Below, one piece after another: positions 3,333 to 47,010 of a stretch of DNA of 64,000 nucleotides (position 1 is the first letter of the stretch; each line of letters begins with the position of its first letter). Below the pieces are notes generated by a model. That model was not told the DNA's origin, made no database searches, and worked only from the letters and a program-made list of their open reading frames with translations. Source of the DNA: Candidatus Zixiibacteriota bacterium (lineage in GTDB: Bacteria > Zixibacteria > MSB-5A5 > GN15 > JACZUZ01); contig JAJRPJ010000011.1 in the NCBI GenBank assembly GCA_024280835.1, forward strand, positions 1-64,000, in the 5' to 3' direction. The translations under genes and the position numbers were made by a program.

Positions 3333-3476
3333 ATGAAGCTGTTTTCAATACTACTAGCGTTTTTTCTTTTCGCGACCACTACATCGAGAGCTACAACTAT
3401 CAACGTCCCCAACGACGTTGCGGGCTGGGATTGCGATAGAGGGGTATTACGATGTTCAAACCACTTTCTGTATTAG
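3333..3476 (+). pseudogene. relic of a secreted beta-helix protein (signal peptide plus first motif)
   Basis: An ORF of 47 codons begins with a perfect signal peptide (MKLFSILLAFFLFATTTSRA) and then TTINVPNDV. That is the usual start of right-handed beta-helix proteins in this group, which continue along the lines of TIQAGIDAAVDGD. Here the DNA after GTT (GCGGGCTGGGATTGCGATAG) still resembles that continuation but is out of frame, and the ORF stops inside the next gene (3452). This looks like the eroded 5' end of a lost gene. Alternatively it could be a fortuitous small secreted peptide. Confidence 0.5.
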
Positions 3477-5713
3477 CTTTCGTGTTCTTATGTGTATTTT
3501 CCATCGTCGCATTAGTGCCTGAGACTACCCAATCGGCAGTTGCCCTCTCACCCCCAATAACTTTCCCTACAAATGTGAAGCCTCATGCTATTAGCATTGA
3601 TACTTACGGAAATGACTCAACACTCTGGGCAATCGTGGGAGATCTCGGATCAGACCAAATCAGCGTTTTCAAAGATGTCGGGAACCTAAGTTTCCAACTA
3701 GTGGCGTCATATAGTAGCGGTTTAGACCCCTACGCGATTAGGTCTGGAGATTTTAATAATGATGGGGATCTTGACTTCGTCGTAGCATACTCAACATCCA
3801 ACACTGTTGTGATTCATCTTAACAACGGCAATGCCAGCTTCGACAATACTAGAACATTTGTCGGTAACGGCAAGCCTATATCTGTTGAAGTCGCAGACCT
3901 AGACAATGATGGTTCACTTGACTTCCTCGTTTGTTCTGAATTACGACCAGATGTAAAACTCTTCTTCGGTGATGGCTTCGGTGGTGTATCTTTGGAAACT
4001 ACTATAAATGTGGGAACATCGCTTTCCAGCGCTCTTCCAAGAGACTATGACGGGGATGGTAAGATCGACATTGCCGTTACAGATTATGGAGCAGGGACAA
4101 TCAACTTCCTCTACAACGACTCAAACCGCAGTTTTTCACTGACAAACTCAGTCAGTATCGGTGCAACAGTTTCAACAATCGCATCTGGTGACATTAATTC
4201 TGACGGAATACTGGACATCGCTTGCAACCTATATAGACCTGGAAAGACATTAACACTACTTTCTACAAACTCTGGCCCAACTGATAGCATTGGGCAGCAA
4301 TTCAGTATGGGATTCGAAGCAACCGACATTGAGCTTGTCGATCTCAACCTCGACGGGAAACTAGAACTTATTGCGGCACAAGGAGGTAGCTCAAGCGGCG
4401 GCAGTCTAACAATCTTCGAACAAGATTCTACAAACTCCTTTCTGCTATCAACAATCTCTAGCTACGACAGAACCAATTTCCATGTAAGAGACCTGAATGG
4501 CGATGGGTTGCCCGACATCTACGGTACTGGCTTCTTTACAAATACATTCTACATCTTACTAAACCAAAGCGCTGCTGTCCTAGTACAAGACCTAGTAGTT
4601 CAATCCAACGACATCCAGCACGTTGTTAGTCAATCGCCTACTTTCGAGTTTTCGATAACCTCAATACCAAATGTTCCTCTAGACACATTCGAAATCACCG
4701 TTGGCGCTGACACTGACTGGACCTTCGCGGAGATGTGGAACCCTGCGCCTTTTGTTTCGGCTGATACGTTTGTTACTTATGCAGGAGCGCCTCTGGTTGA
4801 TGGTTCCGCTTACTATTTGCGCTTGCGTGTGCATAACTCTTTGGTTTGGTCAGATTGGTTTGAAACTTCTTTTCGGATGAACTCTTTGCCCTCTGCGCCG
4901 AGTCTTGTTAGCCCTGATGATGCAGCAGTTGTTGGTTCTTTGAGTCCAACACTGTATGCGCAAAACTCAAGTGACGCAGAAGCCGACACTATCACCTACG
5001 TCTTCGAACTCTATGAAGACTTCAATCTGAATACTCTTATCGAAGCTGACTCAACTGTCATTGAGCAAGCCGACTCGACTGGTTGGGCGCCATTGGCGCC
5101 TCTGGCTGAGAACTCTGCGGCGTATTGGCGAGTTAAGGCCTTTGATGGATTTGAATATTCGGATTGGTCAGAGACGCGATTGTTTTGGGTCAACGCGACC
5201 AATTCGGCGCCAGCGGCGTTTACCCTTGATGCCCCATCGGATTCCACACGGGTTTACGATATGCTTCCAACTTTTCGTTGGCAGAGTTCGGGAGACAATG
5301 ACCCAGGTGATTCTGCTCTCTATCGACTCAGTGTGGCTATTGATTCTGGATTCGCCTTTGTCGCCACAGTCGACAGTCTTAGCGATACATTCTTCATCTG
5401 GGTCGACTCACTTGATTTCGCCGATGAATATTGGTGGAAAGTCGAGGCTTTTGACGCTAACGGAGCTATCACGTCACCCTCTGTGAACTTCTTCCCTACT
5501 TGGGTTCTCGGAGACGCCAATAGCGATGGTGGCGCCAATATCGCGGATGTTACTTTCTTGATAAACAGAATCTTCGGCGGCGGCATTGGCCCCAACCCAC
5601 CCAAAGCAGGTGACATCAATGGTGACTGTACAGTGAATATCGCTGATGTCACGTTCATGATAGCCAGAATTTTCACTGGCGGCGAAGCTCCAAAGATCGG
5701 GTGCGCACCCTAG
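3452..5713 (+). CDS. secreted VCBS/FG-GAP repeat protein with dockerin-like C-terminus
   Basis: This is a 753-residue exported protein. A signal peptide at residues 1-30 is followed by at least six FG-GAP/VCBS calcium-binding blades (DFNNDGDLDFVV, DLDNDGSLDFLV, DYDGDGKIDIAV, DINSDGILDIAC, DLNLDGKLELIA, DLNGDGLPDIYG), consistent with one beta-propeller. Residues of about 390-670 look like fibronectin-III or Ig-like modules (two start near APSLVSPDD and PAAFTLDAP). The last 65 residues hold two dockerin-type loops (GDANSDGGANIADVTFLI and GDINGDCTVNIADVTFMI). It lacks the NPFNP sorting domain of its neighbours. Cell-surface binding or assembly is likely; no enzyme domain is seen. Confidence 0.85.
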   Translation: MFKPLSVLAFVFLCVFSIVALVPETTQSAVALSPPITFPTNVKPHAISIDTYGNDSTLWAIVGDLGSDQISVFKDVGNLSFQLVASYSSGLDPYAIRSGDFNNDGDLDFVVAYSTSNTVVIHLNNGNASFDNTRTFVGNGKPISVEVADLDNDGSLDFLVCSELRPDVKLFFGDGFGGVSLETTINVGTSLSSALPRDYDGDGKIDIAVTDYGAGTINFLYNDSNRSFSLTNSVSIGATVSTIASGDINSDGILDIACNLYRPGKTLTLLSTNSGPTDSIGQQFSMGFEATDIELVDLNLDGKLELIAAQGGSSSGGSLTIFEQDSTNSFLLSTISSYDRTNFHVRDLNGDGLPDIYGTGFFTNTFYILLNQSAAVLVQDLVVQSNDIQHVVSQSPTFEFSITSIPNVPLDTFEITVGADTDWTFAEMWNPAPFVSADTFVTYAGAPLVDGSAYYLRLRVHNSLVWSDWFETSFRMNSLPSAPSLVSPDDAAVVGSLSPTLYAQNSSDAEADTITYVFELYEDFNLNTLIEADSTVIEQADSTGWAPLAPLAENSAAYWRVKAFDGFEYSDWSETRLFWVNATNSAPAAFTLDAPSDSTRVYDMLPTFRWQSSGDNDPGDSALYRLSVAIDSGFAFVATVDSLSDTFFIWVDSLDFADEYWWKVEAFDANGAITSPSVNFFPTWVLGDANSDGGANIADVTFLINRIFGGGIGPNPPKAGDINGDCTVNIADVTFMIARIFTGGEAPKIGCAP

Positions 5714-5727
5714 AAACTCTAATCACG

Positions 5728-5912
5728 CAGACTTTACAACTCACTCTCTCCCGAGTATATTCAGCGGCTGGCTTGGTGTAGTTGAGCTTGGCTATGGAGT
5801 TGACTTATATGCGAACATCGCTGTAAGTCGCTGAAAGACATAATGTTTCTACAGAAAATAATCTCATTATTCAACATATTGAAACCATACTAAACCAGAG
5901 TATTTATTGCAT
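5728..5912. repeat. 185-bp direct repeat, left copy
   Basis: This segment matches 6690-6874 along its whole length at a constant offset of 962 bp. By eye there are no indels and about eleven mismatches. It lies between the stop of the VCBS protein and the stop of the convergent lipoprotein gene at 5916. The right copy is the upstream region of the GlmL-like gene, so this copy is probably a displaced duplicate of that promoter region. Confidence 0.95.
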
Positions 5913-5915
5913 TCC

Positions 5916-6563
5916 TTATTTCGCTGTTGTATCGACGATTGTGTAATCAAGCAACGTCCATGAATCCCAAACCGCCGTGTCAATAGTACCGCCACCATCA
6001 GCGCCCCAATTGATTGCTGTCCGCTTGATGATACCAACATTTGGCGCTATTGCTGTAAAATTCCTTCCGCCGCCGCCCTCAAATCCGAGTCTCACGTTCC
6101 GTGAAATAAATGCGACGCCTTCGAAGACTCCAGCTGTTAGTGATGCTGTTACAATACTATCTACTGTGCTTGTGTCTCCACTGTTGTTTAACTGGCTCCT
6201 CCAACCTACATTCGAAATAAATGGGAGAATGAATTGTTCACCATTACCACTGATACATGTTACTATTGTATCATTTGCTTTACGTACCAACCCCCCATCC
6301 ATAAATTGCCTAGGAGAAAGGAATCTCCAGAGATTCGCTACTCCTCTCTCACAAGTAAAAAGAGTGTCAGTTACAATCACTGTCAGGGTATCAGTGACCA
6401 TCGTCAGTGAATCAATCCGCTCATAAACCCACCAACTACCAACCGTATTGGGAAATGGATCTGGCTTTGGATTTGGTCTACGTGAATCATTTGCGCCACA
6501 ACCGACAAAGATGGCGCCTAGCGATAACGCTGAAAACATGATGACAGAAAATATATACTTCAT
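5916..6563 (-). CDS. lipoprotein, unknown function, between direct repeats
   Basis: This 215-residue protein has a strong Shine-Dalgarno (GGAGGGG) and a lipoprotein signal peptide with lipobox FVGC at about residues 19-22, so it is probably membrane-anchored. The mature part starts with a Pro-rich linker, then FPNTVGSWWVYE and beta-rich sequence with many Thr/Asp repeats (TDTLTVIVTDTL). It resembles the small beta-sandwich lipoproteins common in FCB genomes, but no family can be named. It is transcribed against its neighbours and sits exactly between two 185-bp repeats, which suggests it arrived as an insertion. It has no obvious operon partner. Confidence 0.75.
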   Translation of the reverse strand: MKYIFSVIMFSALSLGAIFVGCGANDSRRPNPKPDPFPNTVGSWWVYERIDSLTMVTDTLTVIVTDTLFTCERGVANLWRFLSPRQFMDGGLVRKANDTIVTCISGNGEQFILPFISNVGWRSQLNNSGDTSTVDSIVTASLTAGVFEGVAFISRNVRLGFEGGGGRNFTAIAPNVGIIKRTAINWGADGGGTIDTAVWDSWTLLDYTIVDTTAK

Positions 6564-6689
6564 TGTTCCCCTCCGAAGTTTATCTCTACGGCTGAAAGAT
6601 AAACGTATTGTCTTTGATTGTCAATCGTCATTTCGTACGAATCAATTGAGGCTCGGTCAGCCAACAACCCCTGTAAGCTCGAACTTCCT

Positions 6690-6874
6690 CAGACTTTACA
6701 ACTCACTCTCTCCCGAGTATATTCAGCGGCTGGCTTGGCTTAGTTGAGCTTGGCTATGGAGTTGGCTTATATGCGGGAATCGCCGTAAGTCACTGAAAGA
6801 CATAATGTTTCTATTGAAAATAATCTCATTATTCAACATATTGAAACCATATTAAACCAGAGTATTTATTGCAT
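6690..6874. repeat. 185-bp direct repeat, right copy
   Basis: This is the second copy of the repeat at 5728-5912. It ends three bases before the preferred ATG (6878) of the GlmL-like gene and so carries that gene's whole upstream region. The repeat ends are sharp: beyond GCAT the two copies diverge immediately. Confidence 0.95.
6841..6868 (+). promoter_or_regulatory. candidate promoter for the GlmL-like gene (possibly leaderless)
   Basis: TTGAAA (6841-6846) and TATTTA (6863-6868) are separated by 16 bp. A transcript starting 7-9 bp after the -10 box would begin at or next to the ATG at 6878. No Shine-Dalgarno sequence precedes that ATG, which fits a leaderless message. The -10 match is only partial, so this is a suggestion. 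Confidence 0.28.
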
Positions 6875-6877
6875 CCT

Positions 6878-8764
6878 ATGGCAAAATTGAATCCAGAACA
6901 GATTAAGTACATTCTCGCCACAGATTGTGGCTCGACGACCACTAAGGCGATTCTAATCGAATTCAAGGACGGCGAGTATCGTCTGACAACTCGTGGCGAA
7001 GCCCCAACAACAGTTGAGGCTCCGATTGAGGACGTTACGCGTGGCGTACTAAACGCCGTCACTGAGCTTGCCGAGCTTTCGGGTCGCAAACTTATTGACG
7101 AAAACGACAGAATCATCACGCCCGCCAATGGCAATGATGGAGTCGATATTTATATTTCGACCTCATCGGCTGGTGGTGGTTTGCAGATGATGGTCGCAGG
7201 TGTTGTCCGCTCGATGACCGCCGAATCAGCCGAGCGCGCGGCGCTGGGCGCAGGCGCGATTGTCATGGACGTTATCGCATCCAACGACAAACGTCTCCCC
7301 CACGAGCAAATCGAACGTATTCGTCACCTCCGCCCAGATATGATTCTGCTAGCAGGTGGAATTGATGGCGGTTCGATTACGCATGTAGTTGAACTCGGCG
7401 AGTTGATTGCTGCCGCTGACCCTCGCCCACGTTTGGGTTCGAGCTATAAATTGCCAGTGATTTATGCAGGTAATGCTTCAGCGCAAGATGCTATCAAAGA
7501 CACTCTGGGCGACAAAGTCGATTTGAAAATCACACCAAACTTGCGTCCAGTGCTTGAACGTGAGAATCTAATCCCTGCGCGTGAAGAAATTCATAATCTC
7601 TTCCTTGAGCATGTGATGGCGCAGGCTCCTGGTTATAGCAAATTGATGGACTGGGCTGACGCCCCAATTATGCCAACCCCTGGAGCTGTCGGCAATATTA
7701 TCAAAACTATCGCGGACATTCACAATATCGAAGCAGTCGGTGTGGATATCGGTGGCGCAACGACTGATATTTTCTCGGTGTTCCGCCCTGACGGCGACGA
7801 AGGAGTATTCAATCGCACAGTCTCGGCGAATTTGGGAATGAGTTATTCGATTTCTAATGTCTTCAAAGAAGCGGGCATGAAAAACGTTATGCGTTGGGTT
7901 CCGTTCAATATGGACGAGCGTGATTTGCGTAACCGTATCAAAAACAAAATGATTCGCCCGACCACTATTCCACAGTCGATGGAAGAGTTGGTTTTTGAAC
8001 AAGCTCTTGCTCGTGAGGCGCTACGTTTGGCGTTCAAACAACATAAGAGTTTTGCGACACAGCTAAAAGGCGTTCAACAACAGCGGACAATCGCTGATGC
8101 CTTCTCGCAAGAGGGTTCAGGCAAGTCGCTGGTGAACATGATGTCACTGAATATGCTAATCGGCTCAGGTGGTGTGCTCTCACACGCTCCAAGAAGAAAC
8201 CAATGCGCGGCGATGATGATTGACTCTTTCCAACCCGAAGGTATCACTCAGTTAGCGGTGGATTCGATTTTCATGATGCCTCAACTTGGTGTGCTCTCAG
8301 AAGTGCATCCAACAGCGGCGACTGAAGTTTTTGAAAAGGATTGCTTGATTCACTTGGGCACATGTGTCGCTCCAGTTGGTGAACTTAAGAAAGCGGGCGG
8401 TGATGTGATGCAGTATAGCATTACAATGCCAGACGGCAGTACTGAAGCTGGGACTTTGAAACATGGTGACATGAAATTGTTTGATGTCGGAATTGGTAGT
8501 GACTCATTGGGCATCAAAGTCAAAGCTACATTGGAGCCAGCTCGCACATTGGATATTGGCGCTGGTAAAGGTGTCAAAATGGAGACAACGCTAACTGGTG
8601 GTGTGGTTGGTATTGTGCTCGATGGACGTGGCCGACCGTTCACTATTAGCGAGGATGAAGAGAAGCGTGTTGCTGATTTACAGCGCTGGAACGAAGCGCT
8701 AGATGTTTATCCAAAGGGCGCGCTCATTCATTCATACGCTCAACCAGAAAACGTGGTGGCTTAA
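6878..8764 (+). CDS. GlmL/MutL-like ASKHA ATPase
   Basis: This 628-residue protein has the actin/Hsp70/sugar-kinase fold. The N-terminal phosphate-1 loop is DCGSTTTKAIL, the second is GVDIGGATTDIFSV near residue 290, and an adenosine-type glycine-rich turn is LLAGGIDGGS. These match the family annotated as glutamate mutase accessory protein GlmL (MutL). Classical GlmL proteins are about 460 residues, so this one has an extra domain of about 150 residues at the C-terminus. No glutamate mutase or other B12-dependent mutase gene is in the window, so that role is doubtful here. The ATG at 6878 is preferred over an in-frame TTG at 6869. It probably forms one unit with the next two genes. Confidence 0.82.
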   Translation: MAKLNPEQIKYILATDCGSTTTKAILIEFKDGEYRLTTRGEAPTTVEAPIEDVTRGVLNAVTELAELSGRKLIDENDRIITPANGNDGVDIYISTSSAGGGLQMMVAGVVRSMTAESAERAALGAGAIVMDVIASNDKRLPHEQIERIRHLRPDMILLAGGIDGGSITHVVELGELIAAADPRPRLGSSYKLPVIYAGNASAQDAIKDTLGDKVDLKITPNLRPVLERENLIPAREEIHNLFLEHVMAQAPGYSKLMDWADAPIMPTPGAVGNIIKTIADIHNIEAVGVDIGGATTDIFSVFRPDGDEGVFNRTVSANLGMSYSISNVFKEAGMKNVMRWVPFNMDERDLRNRIKNKMIRPTTIPQSMEELVFEQALAREALRLAFKQHKSFATQLKGVQQQRTIADAFSQEGSGKSLVNMMSLNMLIGSGGVLSHAPRRNQCAAMMIDSFQPEGITQLAVDSIFMMPQLGVLSEVHPTAATEVFEKDCLIHLGTCVAPVGELKKAGGDVMQYSITMPDGSTEAGTLKHGDMKLFDVGIGSDSLGIKVKATLEPARTLDIGAGKGVKMETTLTGGVVGIVLDGRGRPFTISEDEEKRVADLQRWNEALDVYPKGALIHSYAQPENVVA

Positions 8765-8785
8765 TAGCAAGCACAGGTGATTACA

Positions 8786-9616
8786 ATGAATAAGAACAAA
8801 TTACAGAGATGGGTCATGAGCTTCGTGGCTTTAACGTTAGTGACACTAACACTAGCTAGCTCTTCAGTAAACGCCAAGAATTACATCAACTGGGGCAATG
8901 AGTATTATTTCAACGTCCCTGATGACTGGCGACAGATTGAACGTTTCAATGTTGAAGAGTTCTTGCGCCTCCATGGTAAAAACCCGATTGACGTTCCACA
9001 TGACGCGTTTTTCTGCCCCATAGACGCCGAGCCTTTTTGGTCACGCGCCTATTTGTTTGTCACTTCGGAAAAATCCGAAAACAGTTTTGACATGGCCGAA
9101 GACATGCTCAAAGGCATGGAGACAGAGTTCGCCAAGATGGTCAAAGCACAAGACTCTCTGGGTCCGATAACTCGACTTACTTCCCGTAAGCCGAAACTCG
9201 ACCGTCAGGCGCAAACAATTACACAAGTCTCATCCCTGAATGTACAGGGTGTTGATCAGATTTTACATTTGGTAATGCAGTTCCACAAATCGGGCATCAC
9301 TACATTCTACTTCTACTCACGCGCCGATCTTTATGACGGATATGTGGCAACATTTGACAGAATCATCAGTAGTTTCTCTGATGAGAATTTGAGTGAGGCT
9401 CAGGATGAGGGCGAAGTTAAGATTGTAGATGTATCCTCGCAGGATAGCGCCTCATTGGCTGGAGCGACTTCTAGCGGCTCAACTAGTGACACAACAGATG
9501 GCGGATCTTGGTTTGCGGATTTCTACAGAAAGAATAAATCATTTGCCGGCTTTGCATTTTTCATACTGGCCTTTGTGATTTTCATCAGACTCCGAGCCAA
9601 ACGAGGCGGTGGCTGA
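8786..9616 (+). CDS. exported protein with C-terminal membrane anchor, unknown function
   Basis: This 276-residue protein begins with a signal peptide (MNKNKLQRWVMSFVALTLVTL...SVNA). An ectodomain opens with NWGNEYYFNVPDDW, a pattern resembling PsbP/DUF-type or protease-associated periplasmic modules. A Ser/Thr/Gly-rich linker follows at about 220-245, then one transmembrane helix (FAGFAFFILAFVIFIRL) and a basic tail. The ATG at 8786 is chosen because AGGTGA lies 5 nt upstream; an in-frame GTG exists at 8777. It lies 21 bp after the GlmL-like gene, so co-transcription is likely. The topology puts the main domain outside the cytoplasmic membrane. No family is recognised. Confidence 0.7.
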   Translation: MNKNKLQRWVMSFVALTLVTLTLASSSVNAKNYINWGNEYYFNVPDDWRQIERFNVEEFLRLHGKNPIDVPHDAFFCPIDAEPFWSRAYLFVTSEKSENSFDMAEDMLKGMETEFAKMVKAQDSLGPITRLTSRKPKLDRQAQTITQVSSLNVQGVDQILHLVMQFHKSGITTFYFYSRADLYDGYVATFDRIISSFSDENLSEAQDEGEVKIVDVSSQDSASLAGATSSGSTSDTTDGGSWFADFYRKNKSFAGFAFFILAFVIFIRLRAKRGGG

Positions 9617-9729
9617 GGAAGTTAAACCTAACTGCGCCGTGTGCGCAGACGAGAACAGATTGTACGAGCATTCATTTTCACAAAAAGAAAACACTTTCAG
9701 TTTAGTAATAGAAGTTATAGAGGATAAAT

Positions 9730-10857
9730 ATGGCCTTAGCATACGCGCCGGGATTAACAGTCACTGATCGGCAATTAGTCAAAACAAAACGAATTCTTCC
9801 GCTGAAAGGCGATGTGCTGGTAAAAGTCGGCGACAGAGTCAAACCTGATGATGTCGTTGCACGAACAATGCTCCCTGGGCCAGTTGAACCAATGAACATT
9901 GCAAACAGACTCGGCTTGCCACCAGAAGATGTTGAAGCGGCTATGCTCAAGAAAGCTGGTGACACAGTTAAGAAGGGCGAAGTTGTCGCGAGTGTCAAAA
10001 ACTTCTTCTTCTTTACGAGTGATTGTGAATCAAAAATTGACGGCACTCTTGAGTCGATCTCTGCTGTCACTGGTCAGGCGCTGTTCCGTGGCGCTCCACG
10101 TCCTGTCGAGGTCAAGGCCTATATCGACGGCGAAGTGATTGAAGTTCTTCCAGAGGAAGGTGTCGTAATCGCCACATGGGGTGGACATTTGCAGGGCATC
10201 TTTGGCATCGGCGGTGAGACATCAGGCCTACTCAAACGCGCGGTCGCATCACGCAAAGATGATTTGAAGCCAGAAGACATCACTGACGATATGAAAGGTC
10301 ATGTAATTATCGGTGGCGCTCGTGTGACAGCCGATGCGATTCAACAGGCCATCAAAGTTGGTGTCGCCGCGATTATTACTGGCGGTCTCGACGATCAGGA
10401 TTTACGTAATTTACTTGGTTATGATTTGGGCGTGGCTATCACTGGTAAAGAAACCATTGGTGTGACTTTGGTTGTCACTGAAGGTTTTGGATCAATCAGC
10501 ATGGCTGAGCGCTCTTTTGATTTGCTTTGCTCCAAAGAAGGCCAACTGGCCTGTGTCAATGGCGCGACACAAATTCGCGCAGGTGTTATCCGTCCTGAGG
10601 TGATTATCCCAACCGAAGGCGATGTGCACGCCGACGACGAACGCGCTGGCTACGAACAAGGCGGCATGGACATCGGCTCACCCTTGCGAGTTATCCGTCA
10701 CCCATACTTTGGCCGAATCGGCAAAGTAGTCTCACTACCATCACCTCTAACAGTCCTAGAGTCCGGCTCACACGCCCGCGTAGTAGAAATCCAATTCGAC
10801 GACGACAACAACAAAGCTGTCGTGCCTCGGGCTAATGTCGAGTTGATTGAATCTTAG
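9730..10857 (+). CDS. conserved-looking beta-barrel/sandwich protein, unknown function
   Basis: This 375-residue soluble protein has no signal peptide. The N-terminal 100 residues resemble a barrel-sandwich (biotinyl/RnfC-like) fold: KGDVLVKVGDRVKPDDVVA is repeated later as KKAGDTVKKGEVVAS. A central glycine-rich motif, WGGHLQGIFGIGGETSG, looks strongly conserved. The next part (VIIGGARVTADAIQQAIKVGVAAIITGGL) has the flavour of a Rossmann-like sheet. The C-terminus (HPYFGRIGKVVSLP...ARVVEIQF) is KOW-like. The gene follows the GlmL-like ATPase and the anchored protein on the same strand. It may be a partner or substrate of the ATPase, but that is inference. Confidence 0.75.
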   Translation: MALAYAPGLTVTDRQLVKTKRILPLKGDVLVKVGDRVKPDDVVARTMLPGPVEPMNIANRLGLPPEDVEAAMLKKAGDTVKKGEVVASVKNFFFFTSDCESKIDGTLESISAVTGQALFRGAPRPVEVKAYIDGEVIEVLPEEGVVIATWGGHLQGIFGIGGETSGLLKRAVASRKDDLKPEDITDDMKGHVIIGGARVTADAIQQAIKVGVAAIITGGLDDQDLRNLLGYDLGVAITGKETIGVTLVVTEGFGSISMAERSFDLLCSKEGQLACVNGATQIRAGVIRPEVIIPTEGDVHADDERAGYEQGGMDIGSPLRVIRHPYFGRIGKVVSLPSPLTVLESGSHARVVEIQFDDDNNKAVVPRANVELIES

Positions 10858-11078: not shown

Positions 11079-11401
11079 ATCAATATCCCTTGCAATTTTG
11101 ACTTGCGCGATTTTCTGGGGGAGGGCAGTTACGTAGGTCAAAACCCTTGCGGTTTCGACTCCCCCGTTTGTACTACTCCGCATCCTAACAAGATTTTCAT
11201 CAATCACGTCCTCCCCCAACATCCGCGATGGTTTTATCGGCCGCTGGGGTGGTTTATGCGTATCATAAATGCTATCTGGCGACGAGCGTTTATCGCCAGT
11301 TTCGTCCAATTGGCGGACTACCCCTTTTGGGCTAACGCCGATTGTGACATTCGACAGATAAACCATTGTTTACAACCAACTTATGAGGTAAAAGCCTAAC
11401 T
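11079..11401. other. gene-free stretch before tolQ
   Basis: About 320 bp without a convincing gene. It contains a truncated copy of the family B repeat (11133-11160). Short ORFs occur on both strands, but they run through the repeat and have no ribosome-binding sites. A gaggt ribosome-binding sequence for tolQ lies at 11385-11389. Confidence 0.6.
11133..11160 (+). repeat. family B repeat, short copy
   Basis: The sequence GTAGGTCAAAACCCTTGC followed by GGTTTCGACT matches the left end of the long composite repeats at 41946 and 46504. Inner arms AAACC/GGTTT pair around CTTGC. Only this end is well conserved here; the following 50 bp are only vaguely similar. Confidence 0.6.
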
Positions 11402-12184
11402 GTGTTCTCTATAATCTTATCTAGTTTGTCGACTATTTCGACCTCGGCTCTCACAACTCTCAATTCAGCCCCGCTGGCGATAACCCCGATATTCGCGGCC
11501 TTAGACGGCGGGATTTTTGAGATAATCGCTAATTCGAGCTTCTTTGGAATCCTGATTATGGTCATCTTGTTGCTGTTTTCGGTGGCCTCATGGGCGGTGA
11601 TTGTCAGCCGCTATAAGCTCTACAAATCAGAAGCCAGCGGCTCTGAGGCTCTCTTGGGCCAATTCCGCCGCGCCAAGCGCATGGCTGACACGGTCGGACT
11701 AGCCAAACAATTCCAAAACACTGCTATCGGCAACCAATTATCGGCTGGTATCCAAGAACTAGTCGCAATTCGTGGACGCCAATCCGAAGAAAACCCAAAT
11801 GCAAGCGTCATCCTCGACCGAGAGATTGACTTACTCGAAAGAAAACTAGACCAAGTTGCTGGCGATGAAATGCAGCGGCTTGAATCAGGCGTGATTTTGC
11901 TGGCGACAACCGCCAACGCCTCGCCGTTCTTGGGATTGCTTGGTACAGTTGTCGGAATTATGGTTTCATTCAGAGAAATCGGCCAAACAGGTTCAGCCTC
12001 GCTGGCAATTGTCGCACCTGGTATTGCTGAGGCCCTGTTGGCCACAGCTTTTGGCTTGGCGGCGGCGATTCCTGCGGCGGTGGCCTATAACTGGGCCAAT
12101 CATCGCCTACGTCTCTTTGCCGAACAGGCCGCAAATTTTAACTCCGAGTTCATCGGTCGTATCAGATCGGAGTTCACCGAATGA
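11402..12184 (+). CDS. tolQ: TolQ/ExbB-type proton channel protein
   Basis: This 260-residue inner-membrane protein of the Tol-Pal energy module uses proton flow with TolR to drive TolA. Its three transmembrane segments sit at about 45-70 (FFGILIMVILLLFSVASWAVIV), 155-180 (GVILLATTANASPFLGLLGTVVGIM) and 190-222 (IVAPGIAEALLATAFGLAAAIPAAVAY). The motif SPFLGLLGTVVGI is the family hallmark. The start is a GTG with gaggt 12 nt upstream; no better ATG exists in frame. It overlaps tolR by 4 bp. The N-terminus is about 30 residues longer than in E. coli. Position in a tolQRAB-pal-cpoB cluster makes TolQ more likely than ExbB. Confidence 0.93.
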   Translation: MFSIILSSLSTISTSALTTLNSAPLAITPIFAALDGGIFEIIANSSFFGILIMVILLLFSVASWAVIVSRYKLYKSEASGSEALLGQFRRAKRMADTVGLAKQFQNTAIGNQLSAGIQELVAIRGRQSEENPNASVILDREIDLLERKLDQVAGDEMQRLESGVILLATTANASPFLGLLGTVVGIMVSFREIGQTGSASLAIVAPGIAEALLATAFGLAAAIPAAVAYNWANHRLRLFAEQAANFNSEFIGRIRSEFTE

Positions 12185-41921: not shown

Positions 41922-41945
41922 CTTCTTCAATTTCGGTCCAGCCCC

Positions 41946-42435
41946 GTAGGTCGAAACCCTTGCGGTTTCGACTCTTTCGATTTAGCTACTTCTATGCACA
42001 TCAACATAGACACTCCGCGCACTATCGAAGCTCATGGCGAACTATTGTCATAGTTGAATATGAATAAGAACAGTCGAAACCACAAGGGCTTTCGACATTT
42101 CACTAACGCAGAATCACTACCAAATCACACCAAAACCCCATTCCATCCCTAAGTGATGGCAAACGCATGGCGCACACATCAGGAAAGGAATGTTCTACAA
42201 AATCGCAACAACATTCCTCTACCCGCATACTCTATATGCAAAACGAACCCATTTTGAAAAGTGGAAGATTAGAGGAGTCGGATAGCTCCACAGCCTGTCA
42301 TGCTGAGCGTGGCGAAGTATCTTGTTGGATACCAGTAGGATGAATCGAGAGAAAATTCTTCACTTTGTCCAGAATGACAGAATACCAGAATGACAGAATA
42401 GTAGAACAGCAATCGATGGAAAATTTGACGAAAAG
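41946..42435 (+). repeat. composite noncoding repeat, copy 1 (about 490 bp)
   Basis: It starts with GTAGGTCGAAACCC and aligns with 46504-47010 over nearly its full length, with many substitutions. Shared landmarks are ATGCACATCAACATAGACAC, CGCAGAATCACTA, ATACTCTATAT, GTATCTTGTTGGATACCAG and TTCACTTTGTCCAGAATGAC. There is no conserved reading frame. It contains a 16-bp tandem duplication at 42370-42401. Confidence 0.88.
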
Positions 42436-46277: not shown

Positions 46278-46503
46278 TAGAAAACCTTCCTGCTGAGACC
46301 CCACCACTGGAAACTCAATTGTTGTTAGGGTGAAAGGCGCCAATTCGTCGAGAAGTCACCCATTTCACTGTTTGAGATAATTTACCCTGTTAATCAATTA
46401 CTCGCCTACTATATAAGTGATTTTGCAATAATGTCAATTGCTAATCACGCATTGGGGCAGACAAAGTCTGCACTCGTATTCCTGCGGTGTGTTTCAAAGT
46501 TGC

Positions 46504-47010
46504 GTAGGGCGAAATCTCTTGCGGTTTCGACTCTTTCGAGTCGTCCTACTAACATGCACATCAACATAGACACTTCGCCCACAATCGTGGACTCATGGCC
46601 AATAATTGTCATAGTTGAGTATGAATCGAAACGGTCGCCACCGTAAGGAGTTTCGATATTCCACCAACGCAGAATCACTATCAAATCACACCAGAATTCT
46701 ACTCCACCCCTAAGTGATGACAAACTCAACGCGCACACTTCAGGAAAGGACTGTTCTACAAAACCGCAACAACAATCCTATGCTCGCATACTCTATATAC
46801 AAATCGAACCCATTTTCGGGTGTTGGTGTTGACTATAGTCGGCGAGATTGCAGCGTCGCTTCGCTCCTCGCAATGACTCTTGGACGTGTCGTGCTGAGCG
46901 TAGCGAAGTATCTTGTTGGATACCAGCAGAATGAATCGAAAGAAGATTCTTCACTTTGTCCAGAATGACAGAATAGTAGTACAGCAATTGATGGAAAATT
47001 TAACGAAAAG
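46504..47010 (+). repeat. composite noncoding repeat, copy 2 (about 507 bp)
   Basis: It aligns with 41946-42435. The main difference is in the middle, where this copy carries about 60 bp including GCAGCGTCGCTTCGCTCCTC, and copy 1 has an unrelated 30-bp piece. A partial third repetition of the TATATGCAAAACGAACCCAT segment lies just downstream at 47039-47058. No conserved reading frame is seen. Confidence 0.88.

Follow-up and report, generated by a model that had tools for sequence, protein, structure and literature searches.

The locus studied here lies in a window of 64,000 nucleotides, positions 1 to 64,000 of contig JAJRPJ010000011.1 from a Candidatus Zixiibacteriota bacterium. We label this genome G000, and its closest mutL relatives place it in the same phylum; the only congener compared was G001, and each species was represented by one genome. 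A lipoprotein gene lies between two copies of a 185-bp direct repeat, R, with a dockerin gene to the left and a MutL-family gene (mutL) to the right. The features, in window positions, are the following.

3452-5713, plus strand: FG-GAP/dockerin gene
5728-5912, plus strand: R_L, the left copy of the putative mutL promoter and leader, from repeat alignment
5733-5761, plus strand: predicted promoter-like site in R_L, TTTACA-N17-TATATT (10/12 matches), reading toward mutL across the lipoprotein gene and antisense to it
5913-6689, no strand assigned: module X, 777 bp delimited by the repeat edges, consisting of the lipoprotein gene and 126 bp upstream of it
5916-6563, minus strand: lipoprotein gene (215 aa) with a signal peptide and a candidate lipobox, FVGC
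6596-6624, minus strand: predicted promoter-like site of the lipoprotein gene, TTGACA-N17-TATCTT (10/12 matches), inside X
6690-6874, plus strand: R_R, the right copy, putative mutL promoter and leader, from repeat alignment and from end-to-end alignment with the single mutL leader of G001
6695-6723, plus strand: candidate mutL promoter in R_R, TTTACA-N17-TATATT
6878-8764, plus strand: mutL, a MutL-family (PF13941) gene by Pfam, whose putative promoter is duplicated

The two copies of R, spaced 962 bp apart, match at 174 of 185 bases (94% identity) with exactly 11 mismatches and no indels, and identity drops to background at either end of each. The first-pass annotation had described sharp-ended 185-bp repeats with about eleven differences that bracket a lipoprotein gene, and this description holds. 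R_L occupies almost the entire gap between two convergent genes: it starts 15 bp after the stop of the dockerin gene, and the lipoprotein gene's stop is 3 bp from its other end. R_R ends 3 bp ahead of the mutL ATG (6878). Across the whole genome (3.31 Mb) there are two copies of R and none elsewhere, the second being recovered by BLAST at an E value of about 1e-77. With only two copies, R is not a dispersed repeat, REP, or MITE, and it does not recur at many unrelated loci, the outcome that the annotation had named as weighing against its own reading. Genes for Y1_Tnp transposases (RAYT, the REP-associated type) number seven in G000 and eight in G001, with no tie to R. R had no match in Rfam at E values up to 5, and thus no likeness to a structured RNA or riboswitch leader was found; the edges between R and X lack the inverted repeats expected of a transposon or insertion sequence.

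Judged from its predicted elements, R resembles the promoter of mutL together with the leader. The -35 box TTTACA begins 5 bp inside R in both copies, and in the G001 leader both hexamers and the 17-bp spacing are conserved while the spacer sequence varies. We also considered whether the head of R (RLYNSLSPEYIQRLAWLS) is what remains of the 3' end of a lost coding gene. A reading frame in this head, RLYxSLSPxYIQRLAWxS, can be followed in G001 too. We rejected this candidate: it had no relative in 2.5 Mb of related loci and no Pfam match. The promoter reading is preferred because the conserved hexamers account for the conservation at least as well, and the two readings are not strictly exclusive. 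The product of mutL matches the Pfam MutL family (PF13941) at E = 3.6e-133. Its earlier description as "GlmL-like," with the right repeat copy upstream of it, is fair as to position and resemblance, but the protein misses the curated GlmL cutoffs (249.6 versus 475 bits; 184.9 versus 204.05 bits). As a separate observation, window 6878-10857 holds mutL and the genes for two further proteins, one of 279 aa and one of 375 aa that is weakly similar to RnfC_N/biotinyl-lipoyl. All three keep their order in genome G003 and form a small conserved cluster.

According to the ORF list and Pfam, X encodes the lipoprotein ORF only, with no transposase and no recombinase, as had been noted in the first pass. 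Because the predicted promoter of the lipoprotein gene lies within X, the module would be independent of R. The lipoprotein family is present in 42 of the 81 genomes of the order and resembles known families weakly; 7 of 19 members are DUF3108-like, and there is weak similarity to two solved structures (4fvs and 3fzx) of putative lipoproteins or exported proteins. A phage origin was rejected, as there was neither a PHROG match nor a viral contig.

In the congener, mutL (contig JAJRPM010000006.1; 92% amino acid identity) has one R-like leader, with a REP-like insert in it, and a lipoprotein gene is lacking at that site. This is the kind of sister genome, with one copy and no lipoprotein gene, that the first-pass annotation had proposed to look for, though its upstream neighbor differs: the contig, which begins 191 bp upstream, has a short flank unrelated to the dockerin gene. 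The two genomes agree on the mutL side but not on the other. The upstream edge of R and the end of homology to G001 lie within 4 bp of each other. The best lipoprotein homolog in G001 (43% amino acid identity) is found elsewhere, flanked on contig C16 by dut and a MORN-repeat-like gene. The G000 equivalents of those neighbors are on two contigs (the mqn genes apart from dut), both without the lipoprotein gene, and we accordingly rejected the idea that the G000 gene formerly stood at its G001 site. The distance between R_L and R_R is 0.062 per site, versus 0.92 at 4-fold sites of mutL between the species. It follows that the event came long after the two species separated, or that the copies came from close strains. 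The G001 leader is too diverged to polarize the 11 differences informatively. From these comparisons, the second R copy is derived in the G000 lineage. The site upstream of mutL has been rearranged in the lineage of either G000 or G001, leaving G001 as an imperfect empty site. Overall, the R-X-R structure is real, locus specific, derived, and probably recent.

The dockerin gene (window 3452-5713) has an ortholog in G001 (L187:3576-6575, G001:C7) that sits away from mutL. The C-terminal halves have 78% of amino acids in common; the N-terminal halves are unrelated, with FG-GAP repeats in G000 and a beta-helix-like region in G001. This pattern suggests that the dockerin gene may have undergone domain swapping.

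To assess recurrence, we built a lipoprotein profile from 19 relatives and searched the order with it, which yielded 46 testable family ORFs. An ORF was counted as bracketed if direct repeats of at least 55 bp lay within 700 bp on each side. By this definition, 4 of the 46 lipoprotein-family ORFs were bracketed, compared with 4 of 947 other ORFs from the same and related loci. The enrichment persists without the present case (Fisher P = 0.0027), with the qualification that the cases in G001 and G012 were known before the test was formalized. Loci added afterwards contributed one more case, in G027, which is weak evidence taken alone. Bracketing thus appears to recur around this lipoprotein family more often than expected. 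In G001, the homolog is bracketed by 90-bp direct repeats of a REP-like family (89% identical, spacing 910). These repeats lie at L067:8473-8562 and 9383-9472 (G001:C16), and 8 bases past the family core are also common to them.

The other two cases resemble the mutL locus more closely. In G012 (L247/L061), the duplicated segment (170 bp, 86%) covers the promoter of a DUF4159 gene and about 45 codons from its start. Between the copies are a small ORF and the lipoprotein gene, divergent from the DUF4159 host gene, and the second copy begins 66 bp beyond the lipoprotein stop. The upstream repeat edge lies within 1 bp of the point where homology to the congeners G024 and G071 is lost. The flank of the distal copy, and not that of the proximal copy, resembles the G024 flank, a likeness that consists of a shared dispersed repeat. 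At the corresponding place in G024, between the DUF4159 gene and secF, there is a Y1_Tnp transposase gene (L307:3434-3931, G024:C10). In G027 (L269), the repeat (206 bp, 76%) consists of the 5' end of a class-V aminotransferase (cysteine-desulfurase-like) gene, and a divergent gene with a dockerin and the lipoprotein domain lies between the copies. G012 and G027 share the present architecture, with repeats formed from the 5' end of a divergent neighbor gene. The edge of the repeat away from the upstream side differs by case, from -3 to well inside the host gene.

Duplication at mutL has a second example. In another genome (L123, JAKAKI010000029.1), a decayed second mutL 5' end is found about 1.5 kb upstream of intact mutL, with the copies at 6377-6701 and 7876-8276 and a bacterial-globin gene between them. 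We read it as an independent duplication at mutL. Among 973 gene starts, a nearby nonparalogous duplicate reaching the start-codon region was seen for mutL only, at 2 of 69 mutL starts, one of which is the present case.

Other repeats bracket genes in this order as well. Within the window, direct repeats about 76% identical over 525 bp (41945-42435 and 46503-47010; spacing, 4.56 kb) are intergenic DNA with REP-like units and bracket CHRD-like, cytochrome c, and FG-GAP genes. Elsewhere in G000, two copies (94% identity) of a 162-bp element with inverted ends (GTAGGTCGAAACCCTTGCGGTTTCGAC...) lie 802 bp apart around another small lipoprotein gene (L201:10508-10669 and 11310-11469; G000:C13:214508-215469). 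About 2 kb from mutL on its upstream side in G003, the gene for a short-chain dehydrogenase is surrounded by 357-bp direct repeats (88%; L068:6344-6694 and 7947-8296; G003:C75), and the contig ends within the right copy.

The R-X-R structure most likely records the gain of a gene with no transposase involved. As its specific mechanism we propose one-sided (insertion-duplication) integration, a reading to which we give about an even chance of being correct. A donor fragment of ~0.96 kb, carrying the lipoprotein gene and the adjoining, slightly diverged mutL promoter and leader of a close relative, would have joined the chromosome on one side by homologous recombination within the mutL promoter. 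Its other end would have been closed without homology, either by prior circularization (a single crossover) or by illegitimate joining. The product would read dockerin gene, R, lipoprotein gene, R, mutL. The upstream edge of R, just upstream of the -35 box, would then mark where the likeness between donor and recipient neighborhoods ends, and the other edge, 3 bp before the mutL ATG, would be an arbitrary fragment joint. Such an insertion could be tolerated because a complete promoter remains on mutL's own side. We infer the donor fragment, its route, the ancestral gene order, and any transcription from R_L from this arrangement. As insertion-duplication predicts, two R copies flank the insert, and a single R is found in insert-free G001. 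The coincidence of the upstream edge with the end of homology, together with the variable other edge, is what is expected of a fragment recombining in a promoter. The small distance between the R copies, the matching architecture in G012 and G027, the enrichment of bracketing in the lipoprotein family, and the absence of a lipoprotein remnant past the distal copy in G000 or G012 also favor this reading. Two observations count against one-sided integration: the joint between R_L and the lipoprotein gene has no clear microhomology, and upstream of mutL, G001 has a neighbor other than the dockerin or lipoprotein gene. The first-pass proposal of an insertion with duplication of the promoter region thus survives insofar as the duplication came with the lipoprotein gene and is derived in this lineage, but its extension to phase-like or ongoing deletion is unsupported.

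Known systems provide partial parallels. In E. coli conjugation experiments, a duplication product was found in 56 of 60 selected clones and explained by single crossovers of recircularized fragments; 14 sequenced clones had duplications of 109 to 950 bp (Amarir-Bouhram and colleagues, PMC3240628). That single-crossover integration, like the G000 locus, places an insert between direct repeats of one homologous segment (185 bp here) with no need for a transposase. It differs in that a marker plasmid was under selection there, whereas here there is a natural gene between copies that have diverged by 6%. Homology-facilitated illegitimate recombination (HFIR) in naturally competent bacteria also resembles our proposal, with one homologous and one illegitimate end and about 1 kb of new DNA. 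However, classical HFIR products carry a deletion and usually 3 to 10 bp of microhomology (PMC3240628), and G000 has a duplication and no clear microhomology. An att-flanked integrated element likewise places acquired DNA between direct repeats, but here there is no integrase, the lipoprotein gene is alone, and the repeat is an imperfect 185-bp putative promoter.

The main rival, ranked next after one-sided integration, is a tandem duplication followed by loss, which we consider the less likely of the two. The lipoprotein gene would already have been upstream of mutL, and the unit 5913-6874 would have been duplicated, after which the left lipoprotein copy and the outer flank were deleted and R_L stayed. 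Partial duplications are ordinary, such duplication followed by loss leaves a gene enclosed by direct repeats of a 5' gene end as in G000, and the lipoprotein family commonly forms tandem arrays in the order (e.g., G038, G046, G079, and G080). Two events are needed, though, and the second lipoprotein copy has left no remnant past the distal repeat copy in either G000 or G012. Nor would this scenario lead one to expect the repeat edge just where homology to sister species ends. A very long target-site duplication would produce R-X-R in a single event: nicks staggered by about 185 bp are filled in and the module is captured, with no homologous donor. The resemblance of the distal-copy flank in G012 to G024, through the shared dispersed repeat, would also fit. 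We nonetheless think it quite improbable. X is without a transposase, the absence of Ku from all 81 genomes of the order makes Ku-type end joining unlikely, and we found no bacterial precedent for duplications of such a length. Moreover, fresh fill-in yields identical copies, so the entire 6% divergence must be later change.

The remaining alternatives carry still less weight. R_L might have been kept as an extra mutL promoter that runs antisense through the lipoprotein gene and couples the two inversely, in an excludon-like manner. Its promoter-like site is intact and points through the lipoprotein gene to mutL, so that antisense control of that gene by R_L would be possible, and the distal copies of the host 5' end in G012 and G027 run in the same direction. 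That the arrangement is functional is nevertheless very doubtful: the distal copies have decayed in G027 and L123, and R_L has no fewer polarized changes than R_R, insofar as these can be placed. A chimeric assembly, joining the haplotype dockerin-R-mutL of one strain to lipoprotein-R-mutL of another, is more doubtful still. Every relative found is a metagenome assembly, and the difference between the R copies is typical of strains, but the joint between R_L and the lipoprotein gene offers an assembler no usable overlap, the contig is 388 kb long in a bin with 0.37% contamination, and similar structures occur in independent assemblies. Least credible, to the point of being nearly dismissed, is reversible, phase-like excision by recombination between R_L and R_R. 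Here the early suggestion that such recombination would delete the gene cleanly is sound as geometry (185-bp direct repeats 962 bp apart), and geometry is its sole basis. The copies have already diverged by 6%, there is no recombinase, and a lost gene has no way back. We do not regard the locus as a demonstrated switch or mobile element.

More broadly, the cases might reflect a recurrent process in Zixibacteria in which small lipoprotein genes are placed divergently upstream of other genes and the host 5' end is duplicated beyond the insert. Each event would create an antisense promoter and an excision repeat, and the process would amount to a transposase-free cassette route with built-in control. 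We consider this generalization unlikely. The part worth following is the recurrent bracketing around one lipoprotein family, and the preservation of both joints is unusual. If our reading is true, the locus would be a natural, transposase-free gene gain caught early, with both joints still readable, in a phylum known almost solely from metagenomes. Bracketing of one lipoprotein family in several genera may offer a handle on the movement of accessory surface proteins in the absence of mobile elements, and it also raises the question of whether duplicated promoters matter.
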